Part shown: positions 1,837-13,636 of the stretch, piece after piece | How the letters are laid out: the number at the start of each line of letters is the position of its first letter | How positions within the stretch are numbered: the first letter of the stretch is position 1 | Origin: a virus | Reading direction: 5' to 3' (one strand) | Virus record (IMG/VR): IMGVR_UViG_3300032516_004471 | Span: 1-32,776 of that record | DNA length: 32,776 nt | Program-made: the position numbers and the translations under genes | The notes under the pieces: generated by a model | Seen by the model: the letters and a program-made list of their open reading frames with translations, nothing else | Told to the model about the DNA's origin: nothing | Databases searched by the model: none

Positions 1837-2328
1837 ATGAAGAAGCTGAATTTGGGATGCGGCAAAGACATCCGGCAAAACGATGGATGGATCAATATCG
1901 ACATCCGCCCCGGTCCCGGAGTCAACTTGGTGCACGATCTCGGATTCCCGTTGCCGTTCTCCGAGGGCGAGGTCGATGAAATACTGGCCCAGGATGTACT
2001 CGAACACTTCCCCATCGCCATGACCCAGACCCTTCTCCGCGACTGGCGGCGCGTGCTGAAGGTCGGCGGCGTGGCGGTGATCGAAGTCCCGGACATCAAG
2101 GCGCAGGCCGCGCAGTGGTTGCGGGGCCAGGTCGCGGGCGCCAGGCCCGATCAGCACATCGACGCCCGGTTCTCGGAAATCGTCTACGGCAAGCAGGACT
2201 ATCCGGAGAACACTCATTACCAACTTTTTACCGAGGATCGTTTCAAAATCGAACTCCACGCCGCGGGATTCATCGGATGGACATTTTATTCGCGCGGCCG
2301 AGCCCTTGGTGTAAAGGCGGTAAAATGA
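1837..2328 (+). CDS. Class I SAM-dependent methyltransferase
   Basis: The 163-aa protein starts KKLNLGCGKD, the glycine-rich SAM-binding motif I at the extreme N-terminus. GWINIDI (motif II), ILAQDVLEHF (motif IV) and LKVGGVAVIEVPD follow, which is the order of Methyltransf_11-type enzymes often linked to glycan pathways. I chose the ATG at 1837 because it follows a GAAAGGG ribosome site and leaves only a short lead before motif I. An upstream TTG at 1792 would lie inside the promoter. Substrate unknown; the adjacent glycosyltransferases suggest a sugar or glycan. It overlaps the next gene by ATGA. Confidence 0.8.
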   Translation: MKKLNLGCGKDIRQNDGWINIDIRPGPGVNLVHDLGFPLPFSEGEVDEILAQDVLEHFPIAMTQTLLRDWRRVLKVGGVAVIEVPDIKAQAAQWLRGQVAGARPDQHIDARFSEIVYGKQDYPENTHYQLFTEDRFKIELHAAGFIGWTFYSRGRALGVKAVK

Positions 2329-2618
2329 ACGAGGTAAAAGTGTGCTTCTTCTTCACCGATGCGGGGTTGGTGCCATGCAGCTGCCACATTGTAGGCGCTC
2401 ATGTGGTCCCAGATGACGCCGGAGAGTTGGTGTTTCACTCCGCCCTCGCCCAGAAGGACGCGGTGAACAGTGCGTTGTTGGATATGATGTGCGAAATGTC
2501 ACAGTGCGGGAGGTGCGAGTACCTGGTGGGATGCGAGTCCCATGAACCCAGTACCGATGCTTGCGCGGCACACCTGCTGTCCGAAGCCGAGCGCAGGGTT
2601 GAAGGGAATAAGGTATGA
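2325..2618 (+). CDS. Small Cys-rich hypothetical protein
   Basis: A 97-aa protein whose ATG at 2325 overlaps the stop of the preceding methyltransferase (ATGA), suggesting translational coupling. It contains VPCSCHIV near the N-terminus and CEMSQCGRCEYLVGC in the middle, spacing that could bind zinc. I recognise no family. It begins a string of small Cys-rich proteins running to 8036. Confidence 0.6.
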   Translation: MNEVKVCFFFTDAGLVPCSCHIVGAHVVPDDAGELVFHSALAQKDAVNSALLDMMCEMSQCGRCEYLVGCESHEPSTDACAAHLLSEAERRVEGNKV

Positions 2619-2848
2619 AGTGCCAAAGATGCGATAGGGATGTGCCGTATGTTATGTGTCCACAGGGCCATGCCATAGAAGCCCCCTGCCCCTCCTGCAA
2701 GGAGCATGAGAAGGTGGAGGGCGTGCTTGCCGCCGCGATAATTGCGGCTACCGGAAAAGATGTCACAGTTGAAAAGGTTATCGAAATGGCACGGCAGGTT
2801 AATAATGAACTCGAAGCCCGCCGCTCCGCCAGTGGTGGGAAAGGGTGA
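2615..2848 (+). CDS. Small zinc-ribbon protein ending in SASGGKG
   Basis: A 77-aa protein coupled to its neighbour by an ATGA overlap at 2615. It opens with MKCQRCDRDVPYVMCPQGH and then APCPSCKEH, that is CxxC, C and CxxC groups typical of a zinc ribbon. The rest is a short helical region (VEKVIEMARQVNNELEARR). The opening resembles the proteins starting at 3648 (CERCHGEIPHVECPHC), 5775 and 6249, so it looks like a member of a local paralogous family. Its last residues (RRSASGGKG) are encoded by the repeated junction at 2821-2856. Function unknown. Confidence 0.6.
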   Translation: MKCQRCDRDVPYVMCPQGHAIEAPCPSCKEHEKVEGVLAAAIIAATGKDVTVEKVIEMARQVNNELEARRSASGGKG

Positions 2849-2856
2849 TGGGATGG
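2821..2856 (+). repeat. Junction repeat, copy 1
   Basis: The first of four near-identical segments that carry the end of one gene, its stop, a purine-rich ribosome site and the next ATG. The shared core is TGGTGGGAAAGGGTG followed by A(A/T)GGGATG. This copy differs from copies 2 and 3 at two positions (CAGTGG and GTGATG). It ends the gene at 2615 and starts the gene at 2853. Confidence 0.85.
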
Positions 2857-3419
2857 AAGAAATAATCATGCGCGAGTCGCCATTGGCCGCGAGTCTAAAA
2901 AGTGTGGATGGTTGGGTTTCAAGGAATGGTTTCTATTTTGGGACCGACGAGGGCGCGGCACGGTACGATGGTTGCACTCATGTTAAATGCATGAAGTGCG
3001 GCCTGCCCACGCCCAAAAGTCATCTTTACTGCTCCAAGTGTTCGTCTGATATGTCGCGGGAAAAGTACCTTGAAATGCCGCGTCTGGAATGGGACGGCGA
3101 GGCAATGATATATTCCCACACTCGCGACAAGTATTATTGCGACATTGAACAGATATGCGATGAACTGCAAGACGAGAGCGGGACGGACACGCTTGACAGT
3201 CTGCAACTGGTAATTTGCGAGCCAACATTCGGAAGCGAGATATGCGCCGACCATTTCGCTGACGAGCTTCCCGAAGACGGGGAAGTACCCGATCAACTGT
3301 TGGATGCTATTGACGAATTCAACAAAGCGGTAAGAGTCGCGGGTCCGCTATCATGGCATCCAGGGAAGTACGCGCTGTGCATCCCCCGCTCCGTCAATGG
3401 TGAAGGGAGGAAGGTATGA
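2853..3419 (+). CDS. Hypothetical protein with a central zinc ribbon
   Basis: The 188-aa protein starts at the ATG that ends junction repeat copy 1. The frame is open further upstream, but that part overlaps the preceding gene. It contains CTHVKCMKCGLPTPKS and HLYCSKC near residues 43-65, a probable CxxC...CxxC zinc ribbon. An acidic part follows, with ICDELQDESG, LQLVICEPTFG and ADELPEDGEVP. I do not recognise a named family. The tail overlaps the next ATG by four bases (ATGA). Confidence 0.65.
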   Translation: MEEIIMRESPLAASLKSVDGWVSRNGFYFGTDEGAARYDGCTHVKCMKCGLPTPKSHLYCSKCSSDMSREKYLEMPRLEWDGEAMIYSHTRDKYYCDIEQICDELQDESGTDTLDSLQLVICEPTFGSEICADHFADELPEDGEVPDQLLDAIDEFNKAVRVAGPLSWHPGKYALCIPRSVNGEGRKV

Positions 3420-3643
3420 CATACGACTCTCCCAATCCCAACCATCCCGACTGCAAAAGGCATCGGTGGCAGTTGGTACAAAACCCTACCATACGATTGG
3501 CGTATCGCGTCTGGTGTCAGAACTGTGGGTTGGGGTCTGAATACGATGTGCTTATCAGCCAAGACGATAAACCCGCACTAAAAAGGCGGCTTATCAAAAG
3601 CGTACCGCGCCGTCGCCGCTCCGCCACTGGTGGGAAAGGGTGA
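3416..3643 (+). CDS. Small basic Cys-containing protein ending in SATGGKG
   Basis: 75 aa, started by an ATGA overlap with the preceding gene. It carries HPDCKRHRWQ and VWCQNCGLG, which together could form a C...H...CxxC zinc site, and a very basic tail (KSVPRRRRSATGGKG). The last residues are encoded by junction repeat copy 2. No family recognised. Confidence 0.6.
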   Translation: MTYDSPNPNHPDCKRHRWQLVQNPTIRLAYRVWCQNCGLGSEYDVLISQDDKPALKRRLIKSVPRRRRSATGGKG

Positions 3644-3651
3644 AGGGATGG
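3616..3651 (+). repeat. Junction repeat, copy 2
   Basis: Matches copy 3 (4132-4167) over about 35 of 36 bases. It supplies the RSATGGKG tail and stop of the gene at 3416, plus the ribosome site and ATG of the gene at 3648. Confidence 0.88.
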
Positions 3652-3938
3652 AATGCGAAAGATGCCACGGCGAAATACCGCATGTGGAATGCCCGCATTG
3701 CTTTGCATGTAATGATATTCCTTGCGATAGAGAGGCGATTGATAACGCGCTAAAATTATTATTGCAGAAATATACAAAACTTACTGGCGGTTACTGGTGC
3801 GAATCGGAACGGTTGTATGGCAAGGCTCAAGATGCCATCAAGGCGGGCCGAGGGATGGGAATATCGCCCAAATTGTTGCTTGCGATTACCGAGGCTGTTT
3901 TGTCTATTCGCCCCGCTCGCGAAGTGAAGGAGGGATGA
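3648..3938 (+). CDS. Zinc-ribbon protein, CERCHGEIPHV family
   Basis: A 96-aa protein beginning at the ATG that closes junction repeat copy 2. It opens with CERCHGEIPHVECPHCFAC, a CxxC...CxxC pattern with the same core (hydrophobic, P, H/Y, V) as the N-termini at 2615, 5775 and 6249. The remainder is helical (IDNALKLLLQKYTKL, LLLAITEAVLSI). The likely role is nucleic-acid or protein binding, inferred only from the ribbon. Its stop overlaps the next ATG (ATGA at 3935). Confidence 0.6.
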   Translation: MECERCHGEIPHVECPHCFACNDIPCDREAIDNALKLLLQKYTKLTGGYWCESERLYGKAQDAIKAGRGMGISPKLLLAITEAVLSIRPAREVKEG

Positions 3939-4159
3939 GTATGGTAACGGCATTGGTAGTTTTTGGATGGGTGATTGGATACATAGCGACACTGGCAAGC
4001 GCGATAGTTGAATCAAGGAAGTCGGAATCATGTGATGCCGCTGTGCGACTTCCAGAAGTGTGTATCTGGCTGGTGTTACTGTGGCCGTTATTCGGATGTA
4101 TGGCCCTCGCGTTCTGTTTGGCAGACCATACCCGCTCCGCCACTGGTGGGAAAGGGTGA
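3935..4159 (+). CDS. Small membrane protein, two predicted TM segments
   Basis: A 74-aa product from the ATGA overlap at 3935. It has two hydrophobic stretches, VTALVVFGWVIGYIATLA (about residues 4-21) and VCIWLVLLWPLFGCMALAF (about 46-64), separated by a charged loop. The C-terminus HTRSATGGKG is encoded by junction repeat copy 3. It is the only membrane protein among the zinc-ribbon genes. Function unknown; an anti-defence or superinfection-exclusion role is possible but unsupported. Confidence 0.55.
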   Translation: MSMVTALVVFGWVIGYIATLASAIVESRKSESCDAAVRLPEVCIWLVLLWPLFGCMALAFCLADHTRSATGGKG

Positions 4160-4167
4160 AGGGATGA
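4132..4167 (+). repeat. Junction repeat, copy 3
   Basis: Almost identical to copy 2. It joins the end of the membrane-protein gene (3935) to the ATG of the gene at 4164. Confidence 0.88.
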
Positions 4168-4379
4168 AGGTTGTATTCGTAAAACGAACCCGCAAGAAGA
4201 GCGGCCCGTACTATGTGTCGCTTGATATCTATCACCAGAGTTTTATGGTGGGGCCATATTGGGATACCAAGACAGAGGCTAATTGGTACGCAAACAATTT
4301 GCGGGTTGCACTGAAAAAGATTGTAACCCCCATCAAGGAGGGCGAGTCTGATGATAAAACCACTGGTGGGAAAGGGTGA
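4164..4379 (+). CDS. Small basic hypothetical protein ending in TTGGKG
   Basis: 71 aa. The ATG at 4164 is supplied by junction repeat copy 3. The sequence (MKVVFVKRTRKKSGPYYVSL, WDTKTEANWYANNLRVALKK) looks like a small beta-alpha protein with a basic start and a single helix at the end. It has no Cys, unlike its neighbours. The tail (TPIKEGESDDKTTGGKG) is made of two repeated modules: the CCCCATCAAGGAG module at 4328 and junction repeat copy 4. No family recognised. Confidence 0.55.
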   Translation: MKVVFVKRTRKKSGPYYVSLDIYHQSFMVGPYWDTKTEANWYANNLRVALKKIVTPIKEGESDDKTTGGKG

Positions 4380-4387
4380 AGGGATGG
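4360..4387 (+). repeat. Junction repeat, copy 4 (shorter)
   Basis: Shares the 28 bases from CCACTGGTGGG to GGGATGG with copies 2 and 3 but lacks the upstream CCGCTCCG part. It ends the gene at 4164 and starts the gene at 4384. Confidence 0.85.
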
Positions 4388-4683
4388 ATACACTTGGTGG
4401 GATCATAGAAAAGTTCAAACCGTTTGGTATCCATCCATTGGATATTGAAATGAACGAATTGTGGCCAGAGATCAGCCGCAAAATCACCCGTATTCGCAAG
4501 GACCGTAAATGCGGGTGGTGCGCTAAAATGATACCCAAGGGCGAATGGATGCGTATTGCGTCAGGTAAGACGGAGCGCAGGGAGATGGTTTCAACCTATT
4601 ACTGCATGGATTGTATGCTTGAATTTGCAGATGGCTACCCCCGTTCCACCCCCATCAAGGAGTCCCCCGATGCGCGGCCGTAA
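4384..4683 (+). CDS. Small protein with a CxxC...CxxC zinc site, tail PIKESPDARP
   Basis: A 99-aa protein starting at the ATG from junction repeat copy 4. RKCGWCAKMIPKG and YYCMDCMLEF give a two-CxxC zinc site spaced about 30 residues apart, as in small treble-clef or ribbon proteins. Its last 10 residues, PIKESPDARP, are also the last residues of the Dam-like gene ending at 6262, because both ends lie in the same 65-bp direct repeat. It overlaps the mini-ORF at 4670 by 14 bases. Confidence 0.6.
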   Translation: MDTLGGIIEKFKPFGIHPLDIEMNELWPEISRKITRIRKDRKCGWCAKMIPKGEWMRIASGKTERREMVSTYYCMDCMLEFADGYPRSTPIKESPDARP

Positions 4684-4714
4684 AAACTGCGGGGCCGATG
4701 TGGTCCATGTGCCG
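4650..4714 (+). repeat. 65-bp direct repeat, left copy
   Basis: Matches 6229-6293 with 2 mismatches in 65 bases. It holds CCCCATCAAGGAG, the C-terminal codons of the upstream gene, and the ATG and ADVVHV codons of a mini-ORF. The two copies lie about 1.58 kb apart and flank two DNA methyltransferase genes. Confidence 0.9.
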
Positions 4715-4744
4715 GGTGCGAACTTTAAGGAACCCAAGCCATGA
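4670..4744 (+). CDS. 24-aa mini-ORF, ADVVHV family (copy 1)
   Basis: The ATG at 4670 follows AAGGAG with good spacing. The stop overlaps the next ATG (ATGA at 4741). The peptide is MRGRKNCGADVVHVPGANFK plus four residues. A closely related peptide is encoded at 6249 and a more distant one at 5775. This copy keeps only one Cys (the positions of CTNC in the 6249 copy read GANF), so a zinc ribbon is incomplete here. It may be a decayed member or a leader that couples translation of the methyltransferase. Confidence 0.45.
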   Translation: MRGRKNCGADVVHVPGANFKEPKP

Positions 4745-5778
4745 TACATATTGGTGATGCATTAACCATCCTAAAAACATTACCGAATCAATCGGTAAAC
4801 TGTTGCGTTACGAGTCCGCCTTATTGGGGCTTGCGAGATTATGGTGTTGATGGGCAGATAGGGCTTGAAAGAACCCCGGAAGAATATGTTTCGCAACTGG
4901 TGGCAGTGTTCGCCGAAGTGCGGCGGGTGTTGCGGGATGACGGGACGCTGTGGCTCAACCTGGGCGATTCGTACAACGCCTATAACGGGAATCGGGGAGA
5001 CTCCAAGGGCGTTCAAAAGAACGCGCACGAGATTATGCCGGACCCTCCTGGTGGATACGGTCTATCATGCAAGACGCTCAAGCCCAAAGACCTCGTGGGA
5101 ATCCCATGGCGCTTGGCGTTTGCTTTGCAAGCCGACGGATGGTATCTGCGCCAGGACATCATTTGGCACAAACCAAATCCAATGCCAGAGAGCGTCACCG
5201 ATCGATGCACCAAGGCGCATGAGTATATCTTTATGTTGGCGAAGCGTCCGAGGTACTACTACGACGCGGAGGCGATAAAGGAACCGGCAATTTATTTTGA
5301 TGACGACAGAAAAAGCAGGGCGGCAGAATGTCATAAATCCATGCCAACAGGTGAGAGAAACGGTATCCGCCCCCTTTACAAAGACGCCCTAAGTTACGAT
5401 GGAAAGCACAGCGACAAACAGCGCGGCCACGGACGTCGCCACGCTGGATTTAATGACAGATGGGATGCAATGAATAAAAAAGGACAATGCAGTTCCATGA
5501 GAAACAAACGCTCCGTCTGGACCGTTCCCACGCATGGATTCAAGGAGGCGCATTTTGCAACATTTCCGGAAAAACTAATCGTGCCCTGCATCCTGGCAGG
5601 GTGCCCCGAAGGCGGAACCGTGCTCGATCCGTTCTTTGGCGCGGGAACCGTTGGGGTTGTTGCCAAGAAGTGCAACCGTAAATACATCGGAATCGAATTG
5701 AATCCCAAATATGCAAAGATGGCACAGGATAGAATCGACAATATCGGAGACATGTTATTTTCGGAGGCCACCCCATGA
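4741..5778 (+). CDS. DNA methyltransferase, N6/N4 type (beta-class order)
   Basis: The 345-aa protein has the catalytic motif IV CVTSPPYWGLRDYG at about residues 22-35 near the N-terminus. The SAM-binding motif VLDPFFGAGTVG comes near residue 300, followed by YIGIELNPKYAKMAQDRI. This order (catalytic first, SAM last) is that of beta-class enzymes modifying N4-cytosine or N6-adenine; the SPPY form is common in N4-cytosine enzymes. The region between them (roughly 180-275) holds the likely target-recognition part. It starts by ATGA overlap with a mini-ORF and ends the same way. Probable role: protecting phage DNA from host restriction. No cognate restriction enzyme is recognised nearby. Confidence 0.9.
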   Translation: MIHIGDALTILKTLPNQSVNCCVTSPPYWGLRDYGVDGQIGLERTPEEYVSQLVAVFAEVRRVLRDDGTLWLNLGDSYNAYNGNRGDSKGVQKNAHEIMPDPPGGYGLSCKTLKPKDLVGIPWRLAFALQADGWYLRQDIIWHKPNPMPESVTDRCTKAHEYIFMLAKRPRYYYDAEAIKEPAIYFDDDRKSRAAECHKSMPTGERNGIRPLYKDALSYDGKHSDKQRGHGRRHAGFNDRWDAMNKKGQCSSMRNKRSVWTVPTHGFKEAHFATFPEKLIVPCILAGCPEGGTVLDPFFGAGTVGVVAKKCNRKYIGIELNPKYAKMAQDRIDNIGDMLFSEATP

Positions 5779-5852
5779 ACCAATCCCAATGCCCCCGCTG
5801 CGAGGCCGATGTGGTGCATGTGACGGGTCAGAAATGTAGGGAGGGCAAGTGA
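5775..5852 (+). CDS. 25-aa mini-ORF, ADVVHV family (copy 2, divergent)
   Basis: It begins by ATGA overlap at 5775 and ends by ATGA overlap at 5852. The peptide opens MNQSQCPRCEADVVHVTGQK and then C, giving CxxC plus a third Cys. The ADVVHV core and the DNA around it (GGCCGATGTGGT) match the mini-ORFs at 4670 and 6249. Its MNQS start is also the start of the gene at 6320. Conservation of the peptide across three sites, each wedged between genes, argues for a real product or a conserved coupling element. Confidence 0.5.
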   Translation: MNQSQCPRCEADVVHVTGQKCREGK

Positions 5853-6262
5853 TGAACCGCGTTGCGTTTTCTTCTATTACAGACCATTGGGAAACCCCGG
5901 TGGAGTTGTACCGATCGCTAAATAAAGAGTTCCACTTCAACTACGATCCGTGCCCCCGGCACCCTGATTGCGATGGGCTCAATACGAAATGGGGATCCCG
6001 AACCTTCTGCAACCCGCCGTACAGCGGCATCAAAGCATGGGCCGCGAAGGCGCACGAAGAAGCGCAGTCCGGAAAAACGGTTGTGCTCCTAATCCCAAGT
6101 CGTACCGATACCCGTTGGTGGCACGCCCATGTTATGACCGCCAACGAAATCCGCTTCTGCCGCGGAAGGCTCAAATTCGGCGGTGCGAAAAATAGTGCGC
6201 CGTTCCCTTCATGTATCGCCATCTGGAACCCCATCAAGGAGTCCCCCGATGCCCGGCCGTAA
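5852..6262 (+). CDS. Phage Dam-like DNA N6-adenine methyltransferase
   Basis: The 136-aa protein shows the compact phage adenine methyltransferase pattern: DHWETPVELYRSL at the N-terminus, FNYDPCPRHPDCDG, then the catalytic FCNPPYSGIKAWA (NPPY near residue 54) and VVLLIPSRTDTRWWH, ending in FGGAKNSAPFPSCIAIW. This matches the DNA N-6-adenine-methyltransferase (Dam) family found in phages, here near its short end. The start is the ATG at 5852, overlapping the mini-ORF stop; a GTG at 5849 is less likely. The tail NPIKESPDARP comes from the 65-bp repeat. It probably methylates adenine in phage DNA. Confidence 0.88.
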   Translation: MNRVAFSSITDHWETPVELYRSLNKEFHFNYDPCPRHPDCDGLNTKWGSRTFCNPPYSGIKAWAAKAHEEAQSGKTVVLLIPSRTDTRWWHAHVMTANEIRFCRGRLKFGGAKNSAPFPSCIAIWNPIKESPDARP

Positions 6263-6293
6263 AACCTGCGGGGCCGATGTGGTCCATGTGCCG
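6229..6293 (+). repeat. 65-bp direct repeat, right copy
   Basis: Second copy of the segment at 4650-4714 (2 mismatches). It again joins the end of a real gene (Dam-like) to a mini-ORF. Recombination between the copies would remove both methyltransferase genes cleanly and leave a functional junction. Confidence 0.9.
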
Positions 6294-6323
6294 TGTACGA
6301 ATTGTAAAGGTGTTACTCCATGA
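6249..6323 (+). CDS. 24-aa mini-ORF, ADVVHV family (copy 3)
   Basis: ATG at 6249 after AAGGAG; the stop overlaps the ATG at 6320. The peptide starts MPGRKTCGADVVHVPCTNCK. Its Cys spacing (C, then CxxC) could complete a small zinc knuckle. It is nearly identical to the 4670 copy up to VHVP, then regains two Cys that copy lacks. Confidence 0.48.
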   Translation: MPGRKTCGADVVHVPCTNCKGVTP

Positions 6324-6844
6324 ACCAATCACGGGTGACGGCGGACATGGTAGAAATCGTAGTCGCCAACCATTTTAACTGGCGGCAAAACCTAATAGTT
6401 CCCAATGTCCATTGGGGCTTGGGGCTTGAATATGAATGCGACATGGTTATAGTGCGGCCCTCGGGCTATGTTATCGAGGTCGAAATCAAAGTAACCGCCG
6501 CCGATTTAAGGCGGGACCGAAACAAGCGCAAGTGGCAATTTATAAACAGCGCCAACCTTTATCGGACCAACCAATTATTTAAGCTCCGATACTTTGCGGT
6601 GCCGGTGGAATTGGCCGGCGAGATTAACAACATCCCCGAAGGTTGCGGTTTTATTGTCGCCGATGTCTTGGCCGAGGATGGGACCGTAAACAGGTATGAT
6701 GGCTGCTGCAAAATCGTCAAGCAATCCCGGGTGAACAAACAAGCGTTGCCGATTTCCCCCGCTAAATGGGACAACCTGCAACGACTGGCGGCGATGCGGA
6801 TATGGTCGCTAAAAGAACACATGATGGCAATGAGGAGAAAATAA
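6320..6844 (+). CDS. PD-(D/E)XK-like nuclease fold protein (MmcB-like)
   Basis: The 174-aa protein has LEYECDMVIVRPSGY followed by VIEVEIKVTAADLRRD. An Asp (D41), then E55-x-K57 about 14 residues later, is the catalytic core of the PD-(D/E)XK nuclease superfamily. A following helix with basic residues and YRTNQLFKLRYFAVP fits the second half of that fold. It resembles MmcB-type repair proteins and small phage nucleases in layout. The actual substrate is unknown; repair, recombination or attack on host DNA are all possible. It starts by ATGA overlap. Confidence 0.65.
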   Translation: MNQSRVTADMVEIVVANHFNWRQNLIVPNVHWGLGLEYECDMVIVRPSGYVIEVEIKVTAADLRRDRNKRKWQFINSANLYRTNQLFKLRYFAVPVELAGEINNIPEGCGFIVADVLAEDGTVNRYDGCCKIVKQSRVNKQALPISPAKWDNLQRLAAMRIWSLKEHMMAMRRK

Positions 6845-7375
6845 ATGTGTCCATGTGATTACAAGCTCTACCCCAAAGACTGGCCCCAGATCCGCGCCCG
6901 CATCCTGGCGCGCGCCGGCGACAAGTGTGAACGGTGCATGGCGCCGAACCATGCCGAGATAGTACGAGATGCAAGTGGATGGAAATTGTACGACCGCCTG
7001 ACGCCGGGGCAGAGGTTCGATTACAATTACAAATCCGTTCGGATCGTGCTCACCATCGCCCATGTTGACCACGCAAGGCCCGCCACAGATGGCAACCTGC
7101 GGGCGTGGTGCCAGATGTGTCACTTGAGATACGATGCGAAATACCACCAGGCACACCGCAAGGAAACTCTCAAGGCCAAGCGAACCTCGCCGTTGTTCGA
7201 TCTATCCATGTGCCCCCGCTGCTCCCGCCCCCAGCCGGATCCCGACGGATTGGGAGTGCTGCACTGCACCGGGTGTGGCTACTGCGTGCACCCCAACGAG
7301 CAGGATGGTATCTGCGGGTTCTGCGGGAGGGCCACTGTGGACAAGCAGGGGCGAGGCCGCGGACCGGGAACATAA
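6845..7375 (+). CDS. HNH endonuclease-like protein with C-terminal zinc ribbon
   Basis: 176 aa. CERCMAPN (about residues 28-35) and LTIAHVDHARPATDGNLRAW then CQMCHLRYD form a zinc-bound HNH-type site (AHxDH...N...CxxCH). After residue 125 there are more Cys pairs: MCPRCSRP, LHCTGCGYC and GICGFCGR, which could form one or two extra ribbons. HNH proteins in phages serve as homing endonucleases or take part in packaging; this one is far from the terminase genes. The start abuts the stop of the previous gene (TAA ATG). Confidence 0.75.
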   Translation: MCPCDYKLYPKDWPQIRARILARAGDKCERCMAPNHAEIVRDASGWKLYDRLTPGQRFDYNYKSVRIVLTIAHVDHARPATDGNLRAWCQMCHLRYDAKYHQAHRKETLKAKRTSPLFDLSMCPRCSRPQPDPDGLGVLHCTGCGYCVHPNEQDGICGFCGRATVDKQGRGRGPGT

Positions 7376-8955: not shown

Positions 8956-9167
8956 GCCATATGCCAAAACATACCAACCGCGTACGATGCCATATGAAGC
9001 CTCGACACCCCGCCACAGCCAACCCCGTACCCATACCCACATCCCCCACGCCCATGCCAACACAACACCACTGTCAAAAATCCTCACCAGGGGTGCAGCA
9101 TCAATTCCTACGGGAAAAATATGAGGCGGTATATACCCCTCCCTGCGTATATCCCTGGTTCATCCCC

Positions 9168-9191
9168 ATTGGTTACAAGTCTAAAGGGGGG
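9168..9191 (+). repeat. Second junction repeat (GGTTAYAAGTCTAAAGGG), copy 1
   Basis: Matches 9597-9617 over most of its length (both encode PIGYKSKG) and, less closely, 10552-10574. At the other two sites this sequence is a gene end plus the ribosome site of the next gene, so here it marks a probable former gene border. Confidence 0.7.
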
Positions 9192-9234
9192 TGTGACAAG
9201 GCGGGTTGCAATGGTGGGTGGGGCGCGGTGGACC

Positions 9235-9272: not shown

Positions 9273-9620
9273 GTGAGTGGGGTGGTGTACCTGGCGAGTC
9301 CGTATAGTCACAGGTTGGGGCGGGTGAGGGAGGCGAGGTATCGGGTGGTGATGGCGGTGGCGGCGGGGATGATACGGCAGGGGATGTGTGTATATAGTCC
9401 GATTGTGTACAGTCACCAGATGGCGGGGGCGGTGGGTGGGGATTGGGGTAGTTGGCGGGTGCACGACCTGGGGATGTTGGCGGTATCGAGTGTGGTGTGC
9501 GTACTGTGTTTGGAGGGGTGGAAGGAGTCGGAGGGGGTGAGGCGTGAGATAGAGGCGGCGGTATCCCTGGGGATACGGGTGCAGTATATGTTTCCGATAG
9601 GTTATAAGTCTAAAGGGTAA
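9273..9620 (+). CDS. DUF1937 family protein (deoxyribosyltransferase-like fold)
   Basis: From VVYLASPYSHRLGRVREARY on, the protein matches the DUF1937 layout: an N-terminal YLASPYSH strand-loop, RYRVVMAVAAGMIRQGMCVY, SPIVYSHQMA, a Trp-rich middle (GDWGSWRVHDLGML), then VCVLCLEGWKESEGVRREIE. The family is related to nucleoside 2-deoxyribosyltransferases, and GWKESEGVRREIE corresponds to the usual catalytic-glutamate region. Its role in phages is uncertain; nucleotide salvage or modification is plausible. The start is unsure. GTG at 9273 overlaps a preceding stop (GTGA) and puts the conserved strand at residue 5; GTG at 9282 or the open frame back to 8952 are alternatives. Very G-rich coding strand. 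Confidence 0.7.
   Translation: MSGVVYLASPYSHRLGRVREARYRVVMAVAAGMIRQGMCVYSPIVYSHQMAGAVGGDWGSWRVHDLGMLAVSSVVCVLCLEGWKESEGVRREIEAAVSLGIRVQYMFPIGYKSKG
9425..9448 (+). other. G-quadruplex motif 2
   Basis: GGGGG, GGG, GGGG and GGGG with loops of 4, 1 and 3 bases, inside the DUF1937 coding sequence on the sense strand. The short loops make it a better candidate than motif 1. Confidence 0.55.
9597..9617 (+). repeat. Second junction repeat, copy 2
   Basis: Encodes the IGYKSKG end of the DUF1937 gene and supplies AAAGGG, 7 bases before the ATG at 9625. Confidence 0.75.
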
Positions 9621-9624
9621 TGGT

Positions 9625-10352: not shown

Positions 10353-10568
10353 ATGCCGTGGGCGTGGGTACTGCTGGCGTTCGTATGGTTCGCAATAGCG
10401 GTGATGTTTTTGAGGTATCGGGACCAGGTGCGGTTCCGCGAGGAATCCGAAGCCGCGTTCCGCCACGGCTGGGACCGGAAGATGCCCGCGCGGGACACCT
10501 GGTGGCGGCGGTGGTATGTCGCGGCGAGGAATGCTTGCCGGGCGTGGATGCATAGGTTAGGAATCTAA
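10353..10568 (+). CDS. Small single-pass membrane protein
   Basis: 71 aa from ATG 10353, directly after the preceding gene. MPWAWVLLAFVWFAIAVMFL is one N-terminal membrane segment, followed by a charged cytoplasmic-type part (RYRDQVRFREESEAAFRHGW, MPARDTWWRRW). Holin-like or spanin-like roles are imaginable for its size, but nothing shows either. Its end lies in the second junction repeat, copy 3. Confidence 0.5.
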   Translation: MPWAWVLLAFVWFAIAVMFLRYRDQVRFREESEAAFRHGWDRKMPARDTWWRRWYVAARNACRAWMHRLGI

Positions 10569-10574
10569 AGGGGG
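10552..10574 (+). repeat. Second junction repeat, copy 3 (diverged)
   Basis: ATAGGTTAGGAATCTAAAGG and three more G. Here the TAA inside it is the stop of the membrane-protein gene, in a different frame from copy 2, and AAAGGGGG serves the acetyltransferase start. Confidence 0.6.
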
Positions 10575-10580
10575 ATGAAT

Positions 10581-11510
10581 ATGTGCGATTGCATGAGATA
10601 CGCGCCCGCGGAAGGCGTGAGGGATTGGCGGTGCCCGGAGTGCGGTACCTGGTATGTGTGGGTGTACGCCGAAATGGACGGGTATTGGAAGCCGCAGACA
10701 CTGCCGAACCATTCCGAGGTGAAAAGAACATGGGACGAGGAGCAGGCGGCCGATAGGATGCTGGCGCACGCCACCCCGCAGGAGAACGTCCCGCATCCCG
10801 CGGCTACCGGGGCCGCCACAACGCCTGTGGTGCCCGTAGTGTCGCCCGAGGCGTTCGGCATGGACGAGTTACCCGGCCAGGTAGTAAACACGCTTGTGGG
10901 GCACTACGCGCATCCCAGTGCGATCGTAGACGCAGGCGCCGTGGTCGGCCTCGGTACAAAGATATGGCACTTCGGCCATATCATGGCCGGAGCCCGGATC
11001 GGGGAACGCTGCGTCCTGGGGCAGAATGTACACATCGCATCAGGGGTTCACATTGGCGACGGCGTGAAGATCCAAAATAATGTATCCCTGTACGATGGGT
11101 GCGTTATCGAGGACGATGTGTTTATAGGCCCATCGGCGGTGTTCACCAATGTGAAGACACCGCGGGCGTTCGTAAACCGACACGACGAATACCTGGCCAC
11201 GCGCGTGTGCAGGGGCGCCAGCATCGGCGCGAACGCCACGGTGGTGTGCGGGGTGATAATTGGTCAATATGCGATTGTCGGTGCCGGGTCGGTGGTAACC
11301 AAGAATGTCCGCAGCAGTGATATTGTTGCCGGTGTTCCCGCCAGGTTAATCGGTATTGCCTGCCGATGCGGTACGGTATTGGTAAAAACGAACATTGTTG
11401 ACAATAAATCCAACGTCCAATATAGGTGTCGAATATGCGGTGCCAAGGAGTTTTTGCGCACCCGTGAATGCCCCACTACTACCGCCGATATAATTAAAGG
11501 TACCATATAA
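10581..11510 (+). CDS. Hexapeptide-repeat N-acetyltransferase (WbpD-like) with terminal Zn ribbons
   Basis: About 309 aa. Residues about 110-265 are a left-handed beta-helix built of hexapeptide repeats: [80 protein letters not shown], then [20 protein letters not shown]. The pattern is close to WbpD/WlbB enzymes that N-acetylate UDP-3-amino sugars during O-antigen synthesis. Unusually, it has an N-terminal CDCMRY...[10 protein letters not shown] ribbon and a C-terminal CRCGT...YRCRICGA ribbon, which I do not know from that family. ATG 10581 fits the AAAGGGGG site better than ATG 10575. It may modify a sugar used by the upstream glycosyltransferases. Confidence 0.78.
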
Positions 11511-12142
11511 TGGCAAAGCGTAAATCTGTTCCCGCGCCCGGGCCCAAGGATTTCAACCCGGTGATGATCCCCATTGCCGATCTCAACAAAGCCGAATGGA
11601 ATTACAAGACCGATGACGAGGCCATGGCCGCCAAGCTCGCCGCCAACATCAAACGCAATGGAATCCTGCAGGCGTCCGTGGTATACGAAGCCGGGGGTAA
11701 GATTATTGTATTGGACGGCAATCACCGGCTCGATGCGTACCGCAAACTCGGTATCAAGGCGGCGCCGTGCCTGAATATGGGCCCCATATCCGAGGCCGCG
11801 GCCAAACGCATAGCGATCGAACTCAACGAGACGCACTTCGAGTCCGACCCCATGCGGCTGGCGGAAACCATTAAAGAACTCCTGGCCGAATTCGACGACC
11901 TCGAAGTGACATTCCCGTTTACCGGAGATCAGATACAGGGGTTCGGGGATCTTATCGACTCAAAGCTCGATTGGAACGATGGCGAAGCCGCCGACGCGGA
12001 GCCGCAGATCGATAGGGCTGCTGAACTCAACAAAAAATGGAAGGTGAAAACAGGGGATATGTTTGGTTTGGGCGCGTTCACGGTTTGCCCCAAGTGCGGG
12101 AAGGTTCACAATCTCGACAAGGGGGTTGCAAATGAAATGTGA
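11510..12142 (+). CDS. ParB/Srx-fold protein, split from a methyltransferase partner
   Basis: The 210-aa protein has MIPIADLNKAEWNYKTDDEA, AAKLAANIKRNGILQASVVY and VLDGNHRLDAYRKLGIKAAP, the ParB N-terminal nuclease-like fold with the GNHR motif near residue 71. In many phages this domain is fused to a DNA methyltransferase through a linker like KVKTGD...HRLLCGDST. Here the protein stops soon after WKVKTGDMFGLGAF with a short CPKCGKVHN zinc knuckle, and HRLLCGDST reappears in the next two genes. It overlaps the first methyltransferase by 11 bases and probably acts with both as a complex. Confidence 0.75.
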   Translation: MAKRKSVPAPGPKDFNPVMIPIADLNKAEWNYKTDDEAMAAKLAANIKRNGILQASVVYEAGGKIIVLDGNHRLDAYRKLGIKAAPCLNMGPISEAAAKRIAIELNETHFESDPMRLAETIKELLAEFDDLEVTFPFTGDQIQGFGDLIDSKLDWNDGEAADAEPQIDRAAELNKKWKVKTGDMFGLGAFTVCPKCGKVHNLDKGVANEM

Positions 12143-12851
12143 ATGCGGTCACGAATTTAAACCGAAGATGCAATACCGGCATAGATTGTTATGCGGTGAC
12201 TCGACCAATGCGGAGGATGTGGCGAGGGTGATGGGGGGGGGGAAGGCGGCGGCGGTGCTTTGTGACCCCCCGTATGGTCAAAACCAAAAAGGGGTTGAGC
12301 ATGATTCTCCCGAAGAACATTCCGCTCTCATGAGCGGGGCAATTGCCGCGCTTCCAATTGAAAACGGAGTGATTGCTGCGTTTCAGTCTCCGCGCACTTT
12401 TCACGCATGGACAGACCCGGCAAGGGCGCGTGGGTTTGTGTTTGAGAGAATGCTATGGCTCTACAAGGCCGCACAATGCACCTTCCCGTGGCGGGGATGG
12501 ATTCTGACTTCAGAATCCATCCCCGTTTGTAGTATTGGAAAGCCTCAATGGCAAGATGTTCACCCGTTTTCACACGACTGTTATTATCTGTCGGAGGTTA
12601 GTGGTGAATTGGATCAAGACTCCGGGTGGCACGGGAGCATTAAGCCATTGTCGGTTGTTTCCGATCTGATGAGGCGAATATGTCCGTCTGGGGCAGTGGT
12701 GTTTGACGGATTCCTCGGCTCCGGCACCACACTTGTCGCCTGTGAAAATTTGGGTCGCAGATGCCGCGCCATGGAAATATCTCCCAATTGCTGCGCCATA
12801 ATTTTACAGAGGATGCGGGATGCATTTGGTGTTGTCGGAGTTAAAATATGA
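12132..12851 (+). CDS. DNA methyltransferase 1 of the ParB-linked pair
   Basis: 239 aa. It starts MKCECGHEF then QYRHRLLCGDSTNAEDV, a leader shared with the next gene. Catalytic CDPPYG lies at about residues 44-49, and the SAM motif GFLGSGTTLVACENLGRRC near 195, followed by MEISPNCCAII. This is the N6/N4-type beta-class order. The middle is divergent. A G10 run encodes the Gly stretch just before the catalytic motif (12233-12242), and a perfect 16-bp hairpin encodes RGWILTSESIPV (12492-12525). It is probably a DNA adenine or N4-cytosine methylase that protects phage DNA. ATG 12132 is the only start that leaves the shared leader intact. Confidence 0.82.
   Translation: MKCECGHEFKPKMQYRHRLLCGDSTNAEDVARVMGGGKAAAVLCDPPYGQNQKGVEHDSPEEHSALMSGAIAALPIENGVIAAFQSPRTFHAWTDPARARGFVFERMLWLYKAAQCTFPWRGWILTSESIPVCSIGKPQWQDVHPFSHDCYYLSEVSGELDQDSGWHGSIKPLSVVSDLMRRICPSGAVVFDGFLGSGTTLVACENLGRRCRAMEISPNCCAIILQRMRDAFGVVGVKI
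12233..12242 (+). repeat. Homopolymeric G10 tract
   Basis: Ten consecutive G, inside the methyltransferase 1 gene about 7 codons before the catalytic DPPYG motif. The frame is intact in this copy. Such tracts are prone to slippage during replication and also to sequencing error. Confidence 0.85.
12492..12525. repeat. Perfect 16-bp hairpin inside methyltransferase 1
   Basis: CGGGGATGGATTCTGA, a 2-base CT loop, then its exact reverse complement. It is fully inside the coding sequence and in frame. Confidence 0.92.
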
Positions 12852-13636
12852 AATGTTCCTGTGGCCATACATTCGATCCTGAAATTCAATACCGGCACCG
12901 CCTGCTTTGTGGGGACAGCACCAACGCCCAAGTATGTGATGCATTTATGGCAGGCACCAAGGCCACGCTGGTGTTCACCGACCCGCCCTATGGCGTCAGC
13001 ATCGGCAAAAAAAATGTGATGCTAAACACCTTCCAGAAGGCTGGAAGGTGTTTAGGCAACTTGGACATGGATGATATGCCGCCCAAGGAATTGGGTGAAA
13101 TGTTATTGAAGGTTTTTAAACTGTGGCGCGGATATATGGCGGACGACTGTTCTGTGTTCGTGTGCTCTCCGCAGGGCGGAGGTCTCGGTATGATGATGAT
13201 GATGATGATGGATGCAGGCTTGGAGGTGCGGCACATTCTGAATTGGATTAAAAATTGTCCGACCTTCAGTATGGGCCGTTTGGATTATGATTATCAGCAT
13301 GAACCAATTCTATTCACATGGACCAAAACCCATAAGCGCAAACACGATGGCGCGTTTCGGACTTCGCTGTGGTCCGTGGATAAGCCCCATGCCAACAAGG
13401 AACACCCCACGATGAAACCAATTGAACTTCCTACCTGCGCGATTCTCAACCATACCGATACCGGCGATGTGGTCGTGGACATGTTTGGCGGCAGCGGTAC
13501 TACCATGGTGGCGTCCGAGAACACAAAGCGATCATGCCGTATGGTGGAAATTGATCCCAATTTCTGCGCCGTGATATTGGAAAGAATGACAACTGCATTC
13601 CCAAATATTAAAACAGAAAAACTCCCCAGGAAATAA
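12848..13636 (+). CDS. DNA methyltransferase 2 of the ParB-linked pair
   Basis: 262 aa, coupled by ATGA overlap at 12848. The leader MKCSCGHTF then IQYRHRLLCGDSTNAQV parallels methyltransferase 1. Catalytic TDPPYGVSIG is at the same position (D45). The SAM motif VVDMFGGSGTTMVASENTKR lies near 210, followed by VEIDPNFCAVILERM. Its centre, with WIKNCPTFSMGRLDYDYQHE and PILFTWTKTHKRKHDG, is the usual pattern of phage ParB-linked adenine or N4-cytosine methylases. A 15-bp perfect hairpin (13022-13055) and a run of seven Met codons (13190-13210) interrupt otherwise conserved sequence. Confidence 0.87.
   Translation: MKCSCGHTFDPEIQYRHRLLCGDSTNAQVCDAFMAGTKATLVFTDPPYGVSIGKKNVMLNTFQKAGRCLGNLDMDDMPPKELGEMLLKVFKLWRGYMADDCSVFVCSPQGGGLGMMMMMMMDAGLEVRHILNWIKNCPTFSMGRLDYDYQHEPILFTWTKTHKRKHDGAFRTSLWSVDKPHANKEHPTMKPIELPTCAILNHTDTGDVVVDMFGGSGTTMVASENTKRSCRMVEIDPNFCAVILERMTTAFPNIKTEKLPRK
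13022..13055. repeat. Perfect 15-bp hairpin inside methyltransferase 2
   Basis: CTAAACACCTTCCAG, loop AAGG, then its exact reverse complement. It encodes LNTFQKAGRCLG, 10-20 residues after the catalytic motif. The sequence is unrelated to the hairpin in methyltransferase 1. Confidence 0.92.
13190..13210 (+). repeat. (ATG)7 trinucleotide repeat
   Basis: Seven tandem ATG codons giving seven Met in a row in methyltransferase 2 (GLG then Met run then DAG). Length change would alter the Met count without breaking the frame. Confidence 0.9.

Follow-up and report, generated by a model that had tools for sequence, protein, structure and literature searches.

Three short open reading frames (mini-ORFs), claimed in an earlier note and borne out by the ORF list, lie between larger genes in a virus record from IMG/VR that was analysed at its full length of 32,776 bp, referred to below as the window (Table 1). 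At its 5′ end each overlaps the end of the upstream gene, and at its 3′ end it runs onto the start codon of the following gene. The overlapping start and stop positions described in that note are indeed present, as ATGA at 4741, 6320 and 5775 and as TGATG at 5850-5854. An SD-like sequence stands 7 nt ahead of each mini-ORF start (AAGGAG before 4670 and 6249, GGAGG before 5775), and the 3′ end of each mini-ORF holds the SD for the following gene. The three mini-ORFs are probably translated, since each has an SD. A programmed frameshift joining the upstream gene to the mini-ORF was judged from the sequence to be unneeded, as every ORF comes with an SD and an ATG. ADVVHV and one cysteine are invariant in all three peptides; the earlier note had spoken of shared cysteine positions in the plural, but only this one is common.

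Table 1. Features of the mini-ORF region and neighbouring junctions
Feature	Position	Strand	Description
Mini-ORF 1	4670-4744	+	Peptide MRGRKNCGADVVHVPGANFKEPKP; ancestral Cys kept 1/4
Mini-ORF 2	5775-5852	+	Peptide MNQSQCPRCEADVVHVTGQKCREGK; ancestral Cys kept 3/4
Mini-ORF 3	6249-6323	+	Peptide MPGRKTCGADVVHVPCTNCKGVTP; ancestral Cys kept 3/4
Junction repeat copy 1	4650-4744	+	3′ end of gene 4384-4683 (PIKESPDARP-stop), SD AAGGAG, mini-ORF 4670-4744, methylase start codon at 4741
Junction repeat copy 2	5775-5855	+	Contains mini-ORF 2; 58-nt repeat, 78%
Junction repeat copy 3	6229-6323	+	Contains mini-ORF 3; ends on start codon of gene 6320
N6/N4 DNA methylase behind copy 1	4741-5778	+	PF01555, E=3.5e-52
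Dam-type DNA adenine methylase behind copy 2	5852-6262	+	PF05869, E=1.1e-20, residues 8-127
MmcB-like / phrog_2776 protein behind copy 3	6320-6844	+	phrog_2776, E=3.4e-16; PF06319, E=1.9e-4, just below cut-off
Zinc-ribbon-like N-terminal segment, 77-aa protein	2615-2674	+	MKCQRCDRDVPYVMCPQG; motif
Zinc-ribbon-like N-terminal segment, 96-aa protein	3648-3707	+	MECERCHGEIPHVECPHC; motif
Second repeat family, copy a	2819-2858	+	SASGGKG-stop tail, SD, ATG of gene 2853; 4-copy direct repeat
Second repeat family, copy b	3614-3653	+	SATGGKG-stop tail, ATG of gene 3648; 95%
Second repeat family, copy c	4130-4169	+	SATGGKG-stop tail, ATG near 4164; 85%
Hybrid junction	4327-4389	+	CCCCATCAAGGAG of the mini-ORF repeat, then CCACTGGTGGGAAAGGGTGAAGGGATG of the second family; repeat search, sequence, alignment

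The similarity among the three sites is found at the DNA level and does not stop at the mini-ORFs: on one side it takes in the 3′ end of the upstream gene, and on the other it runs up to the downstream start codon. Copies 1 and 3 form a 79-nt direct repeat (4650-4728 and 6229-6307) with 92% identity, and a 58-nt core is present in all three copies at 78-79% identity. Because the similarity runs past the limits of the mini-ORFs, what is repeated is a gene junction, not a family of peptides. Inside the repeat, an 18-nt core, GCCGATGTGGTSCATGTG, is identical at 17 of 18 bases across the copies while its flanks diverge; the single differing base in this ADVVHV core is synonymous, and the downstream ATG follows the core by the same 29 nt in 3/3 copies. 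The genes entered at that ATG are mutually unrelated. On the upstream side, the 5′ part of the repeat gives two unrelated genes the same C-terminal tail, PIKESPDARP. One of them is the Dam gene, whose homology stops at residue 125 (tblastn, other phages) or 127 (Pfam); the repeat-derived tail starts there, so the end of the Dam protein is junction DNA. The edges of the repeat thus coincide with the end of gene homology (Dam) and with the downstream ATG. The first codons of mini-ORF 2 share a 13-mer, CCATGAACCAATC, with the junction and start of gene 6320, and this 13-mer occurs twice in the window. The window holds no fourth copy of the mini-ORF repeat.

Other junctions of the region are repeated as well. 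A second repeat, CCGCTCCGCCACTGGTGGGAAAGGGTGAAGGGATG, is found at four junctions (2819, 3614, 4130 and 4350), where the C-terminal tails end in GGKG-stop. At the hybrid junction, the repeat of this second family is attached to the opening 13 bases of the mini-ORF repeat, and the four-copy family and the hybrid fall in the same 4 kb as the mini-ORF repeat. A third junction-like repeat, GGTTA.AA.TCTAAAGGG, lies near gene starts at 9167-9193, 9596-9622 and 10551-10577, and one of its copies encodes the C-terminus GYKSKG-stop of a gene. Among 88 control loci (807 kb), four contain a pair of repeats that include an SD and a start, and none contains a larger family; the region is therefore unusual in degree, not in kind.

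The mini-ORFs had been said to resemble the N-termini of the proteins encoded at 2615 and 3648, and this likeness exceeds chance when motif counts are compared with other phage loci and with shuffled sequence. The window contains the motif C-x2-C-x2-[DE]-[VILM]-[VPA]-[HY]-[VILM] at three sites (2615, 3648 and 5775) and has five matches to a looser form. The other phage loci, 810 kb in all, have 0, and shuffled windows have 0.005-0.01 each. The DNA encoding the two N-termini is 47-57% identical to the mini-ORF cores, where the 99th percentile of random comparisons is 42%. The N-terminus at 3648 has all four cysteine ligands in two CxxC knuckles; with it as a guide, we infer that the ancestor of the mini-ORFs would have been CxxC-x8-CxxC. 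The same spacing is seen in short zinc ribbons with two CxxC knuckles, for example Zn_ribbon_InsA (PF03811). Unlike these, no mini-ORF has all four ligands, and their scores fall under the Pfam cut-offs; the match of copy 2 to the InsA ribbon is weak (E=0.0085, below cut-off). The cysteine missing from copy 2 differs from the one missing from copy 3. This pattern suggests that the stubs probably derive from a ribbon and not the reverse. A full-length parent gene was not found in the window, where the DNA at 2615 and 3648 is only 47-57% alike to the stubs, and a search for phage relatives of these two longer ribbons gave none.

We asked whether the reading frames carry signs of selection. Between copies 1 and 3 there are five nonsynonymous and two synonymous substitutions (~71% nonsynonymous, with 75% expected in the absence of selection), so that, within these small numbers, nonsynonymous change is not depleted. 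A substitution in the mini-ORFs has just a 2-4% chance of creating a stop, and open frames are therefore weak evidence. Taken with the cysteine losses, the 5:2 count and the rarity of stop-creating changes speak against selection on a zinc-binding peptide as the reason why the frames are open. The constancy of the ADVVHV core amid diverging flanks weakly suggests constraint; we estimate that it would arise by chance in ~7% of cases at the mean divergence. With only one synonymous base differing, albeit in small numbers, the 18-nt core may be under some constraint.

Relatives of the mini-ORF peptides were found neither in IMG/VR, nor in 84,980 genomes, nor among GenBank phages. An exact search with the DNA core returned six viral matches, every one in an unrelated context, and neither an alignment search nor a degenerate CxxC motif search gave a match. 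The pattern C(G/E/D)ADVVHV matched 69 times in genomes and viruses, with 0 in a CxxC knuckle. The sole tblastn match of an idealised ribbon, H32, was rejected as an unrelated double-CxxC protein. The second junction-repeat family of the window had no match in IMG/VR. By terminase, the only relatives are L090 and L092, at 58%; their upstream gene content differs and they are without these junction repeats. No terminase relatives were found in genome contigs, and the collections searched contained no close relative, empty site or exchange partner. In its C-terminal part, a single 868-aa ORF of the phage (19313-21919) has a match to phage capsid protein (PF25209), and its long N-terminal part may be a fused prohead protease; L090 has a similar ORF of 945 aa. 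L092 carries tandem 23-bp repeats, CCCTAGTTAACTTTTCGGAATAT, at its contig end (1-161).

We interpret the mini-ORFs as stubs, the truncated 5′ ends of an old zinc-ribbon gene, lying within a gene-junction repeat that was copied during cassette shuffling, and assign this reading a probability of about 0.68. The copied unit would consist of the 3′ end of an upstream gene, an SD, the stub ORF, a further SD and the downstream ATG. Recombination at short homologies would have brought in or shuffled unrelated DNA-modification and repair genes and copied the junction along with them, each incoming gene landing exactly behind the ATG of the repeat. The main remaining effect of translating the stubs, if any, would be to feed ribosomes to the next start (translational coupling); the peptide would no longer bind zinc as a ribbon, and the copies would decay. 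On this reading the stubs are translated yet mostly non-functional, and are perhaps kept as translational-coupling leaders. The earlier note had offered coupling leaders that evolved into zinc ribbons. The coupling is plausible, given the SD in each mini-ORF and the stop that overlaps the next start, but the evolutionary direction is probably backwards, as the copies resemble ribbon stubs in decay.

The features that make coupling plausible could also mean that selection maintains the repeat for translational control: ribosomes ending the mini-ORF would start the methylase or repair gene, and the peptide sequence would be irrelevant. The SD 7 nt before each mini-ORF, the internal 3′ SD, the stop/ATG overlap in 3/3 copies and the fixed offset from core to ATG are all consistent with functional leaders of this kind. 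However, overlaps of the ATGA type are normal between neighbours here (2325, 2615, 3416, 7612 and 7851), so overlap alone shows no special role. RNA at the three mini-ORF junctions folds no better than shuffled sequence (z 0.66 to 2.14) and matches no Rfam family, and an RNA element at these sites was rejected on the same grounds. Moreover, candidate coupled ORFs of 15-45 aa precede just 9 of 80 related methylases, and none of them contains CxxC. On balance, we consider selected leaders unlikely. A bolder form, in which the repeat is a portable coupling cassette (a mini-ORF with its SD, a stop/ATG overlap and a landing site behind it) reused by phages, seems to us improbable; if true, methylase or repair genes that phages install this way would be ready for expression immediately. 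A sub-threshold Rfam match to snoU54 at 6825-6902 is taken as chance.

The near-identity of the 18-nt core amid diverging flanks, its fixed offset and the functionally related genes behind it would also fit an operator or RNA-binding site that co-regulates the three DNA-modification and repair genes, in the manner of the SAS described below. Duplication accounts for the same bases, however, and the site shows no stable fold, has no fourth copy in the window and has no counterpart in L090 or L092; we give a cis-regulatory site little credence. We give slightly less still to a selected family of mini zinc ribbons, put forward in the earlier note as an undescribed microprotein family. The common ADVVHV, the kinship to the ribbons at 2615 and 3648 and the weak InsA match of copy 2 speak for such a family. 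Against it, at least one zinc ligand is missing from every copy (three of four in copy 1), there is no synonymous excess, and the collections searched hold no relatives.

Repeats at phage gene junctions are already known, and the one described here is a variant with an ORF inside. In cluster K mycobacteriophages, SAS and ESAS repeats lie immediately before the starts of unrelated genes and have a proposed role in translation initiation; SAS is a 13-bp sequence, GGGATAGGAGCCC, ESAS adds 17-bp inverted repeats, and both are conserved across the cluster (PMC3203893). Our repeat is similar in that the same element precedes the starts of unrelated genes in one genome (the methylase, Dam and MmcB-like genes). 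It differs in being 58-79 nt long and in carrying an ORF. The SAS sequence has two matches in the window at two mismatches, neither at a mini-ORF junction (chance 0.85). The 17-bp inverted repeat of ESAS is imperfect; folding of the mini-ORF junctions gave no stable structure. In a model of phage module boundaries, short homologies at gene boundaries allow gene exchange, and module ends are gene ends (PMC3233612). The repeat resembles such boundary sequences, being a short homology at gene boundaries with edges that match gene ends. That model concerns exchange between phages, whereas here the copies lie within one genome, include the mini-ORF and have no exchange partner that we could find. 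By this comparison the repeat would work in part like SAS and boundary sequences, the closest known phenomena.

Comparable arrangements are present at related methylases of unrelated phages. In L035, a coupled ORF of 32-35 aa directly ahead of the methylase is composed of two neighbouring gene ends: its first part (YTHRTDTA) is a copy of the 5′ end of the gene that follows the methylase, and its last part (MERLKRSPDLLDALLMTFTFSE) is a copy of the 3′ end of gene 2241-3770. In L054, a perfect 24-nt start-codon repeat is found at both ends of the methylase, and in L007 longer repeats at both ends of the methylase match. The window is therefore not alone in having mini-ORFs that arise from the ends of neighbouring genes where a methylase is inserted; the 13-mer at the start of mini-ORF 2, shared with the junction of gene 6320, is a similar case. 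The L007 repeats (4288-4531 and 5885-6090) encode a common C-terminal segment (GRLRAYGNAIVAQAA..).

Including those at 4741 and 5852, DNA methylase genes number at least four in this phage. At 11510-13636, two N6/N4 methylase genes whose N-termini are alike (MKC.CGH.F.P..QYRHRLLCGDSTNA) come after a ParB_N-like protein (sub-threshold, E=0.0005); the arrangement looks like a split and duplicated ParB-methylase. An HNH endonuclease gene at 6845-7375 continues past its phrog_1571 match into an additional C-terminal segment (7201-7375) with many CxxC pairs.

These observations suggest that gene shuffling can leave behind what look like microprotein families in phages. When junction DNA is repeated, it yields several short, similar, well-placed ORFs that bear an SD, and catalogues of small genes could list them as a family. 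The region, in which several repeat families and a hybrid junction lie within 4 kb, would be a snapshot of gene accretion, with parallels at the methylases of unrelated phages.
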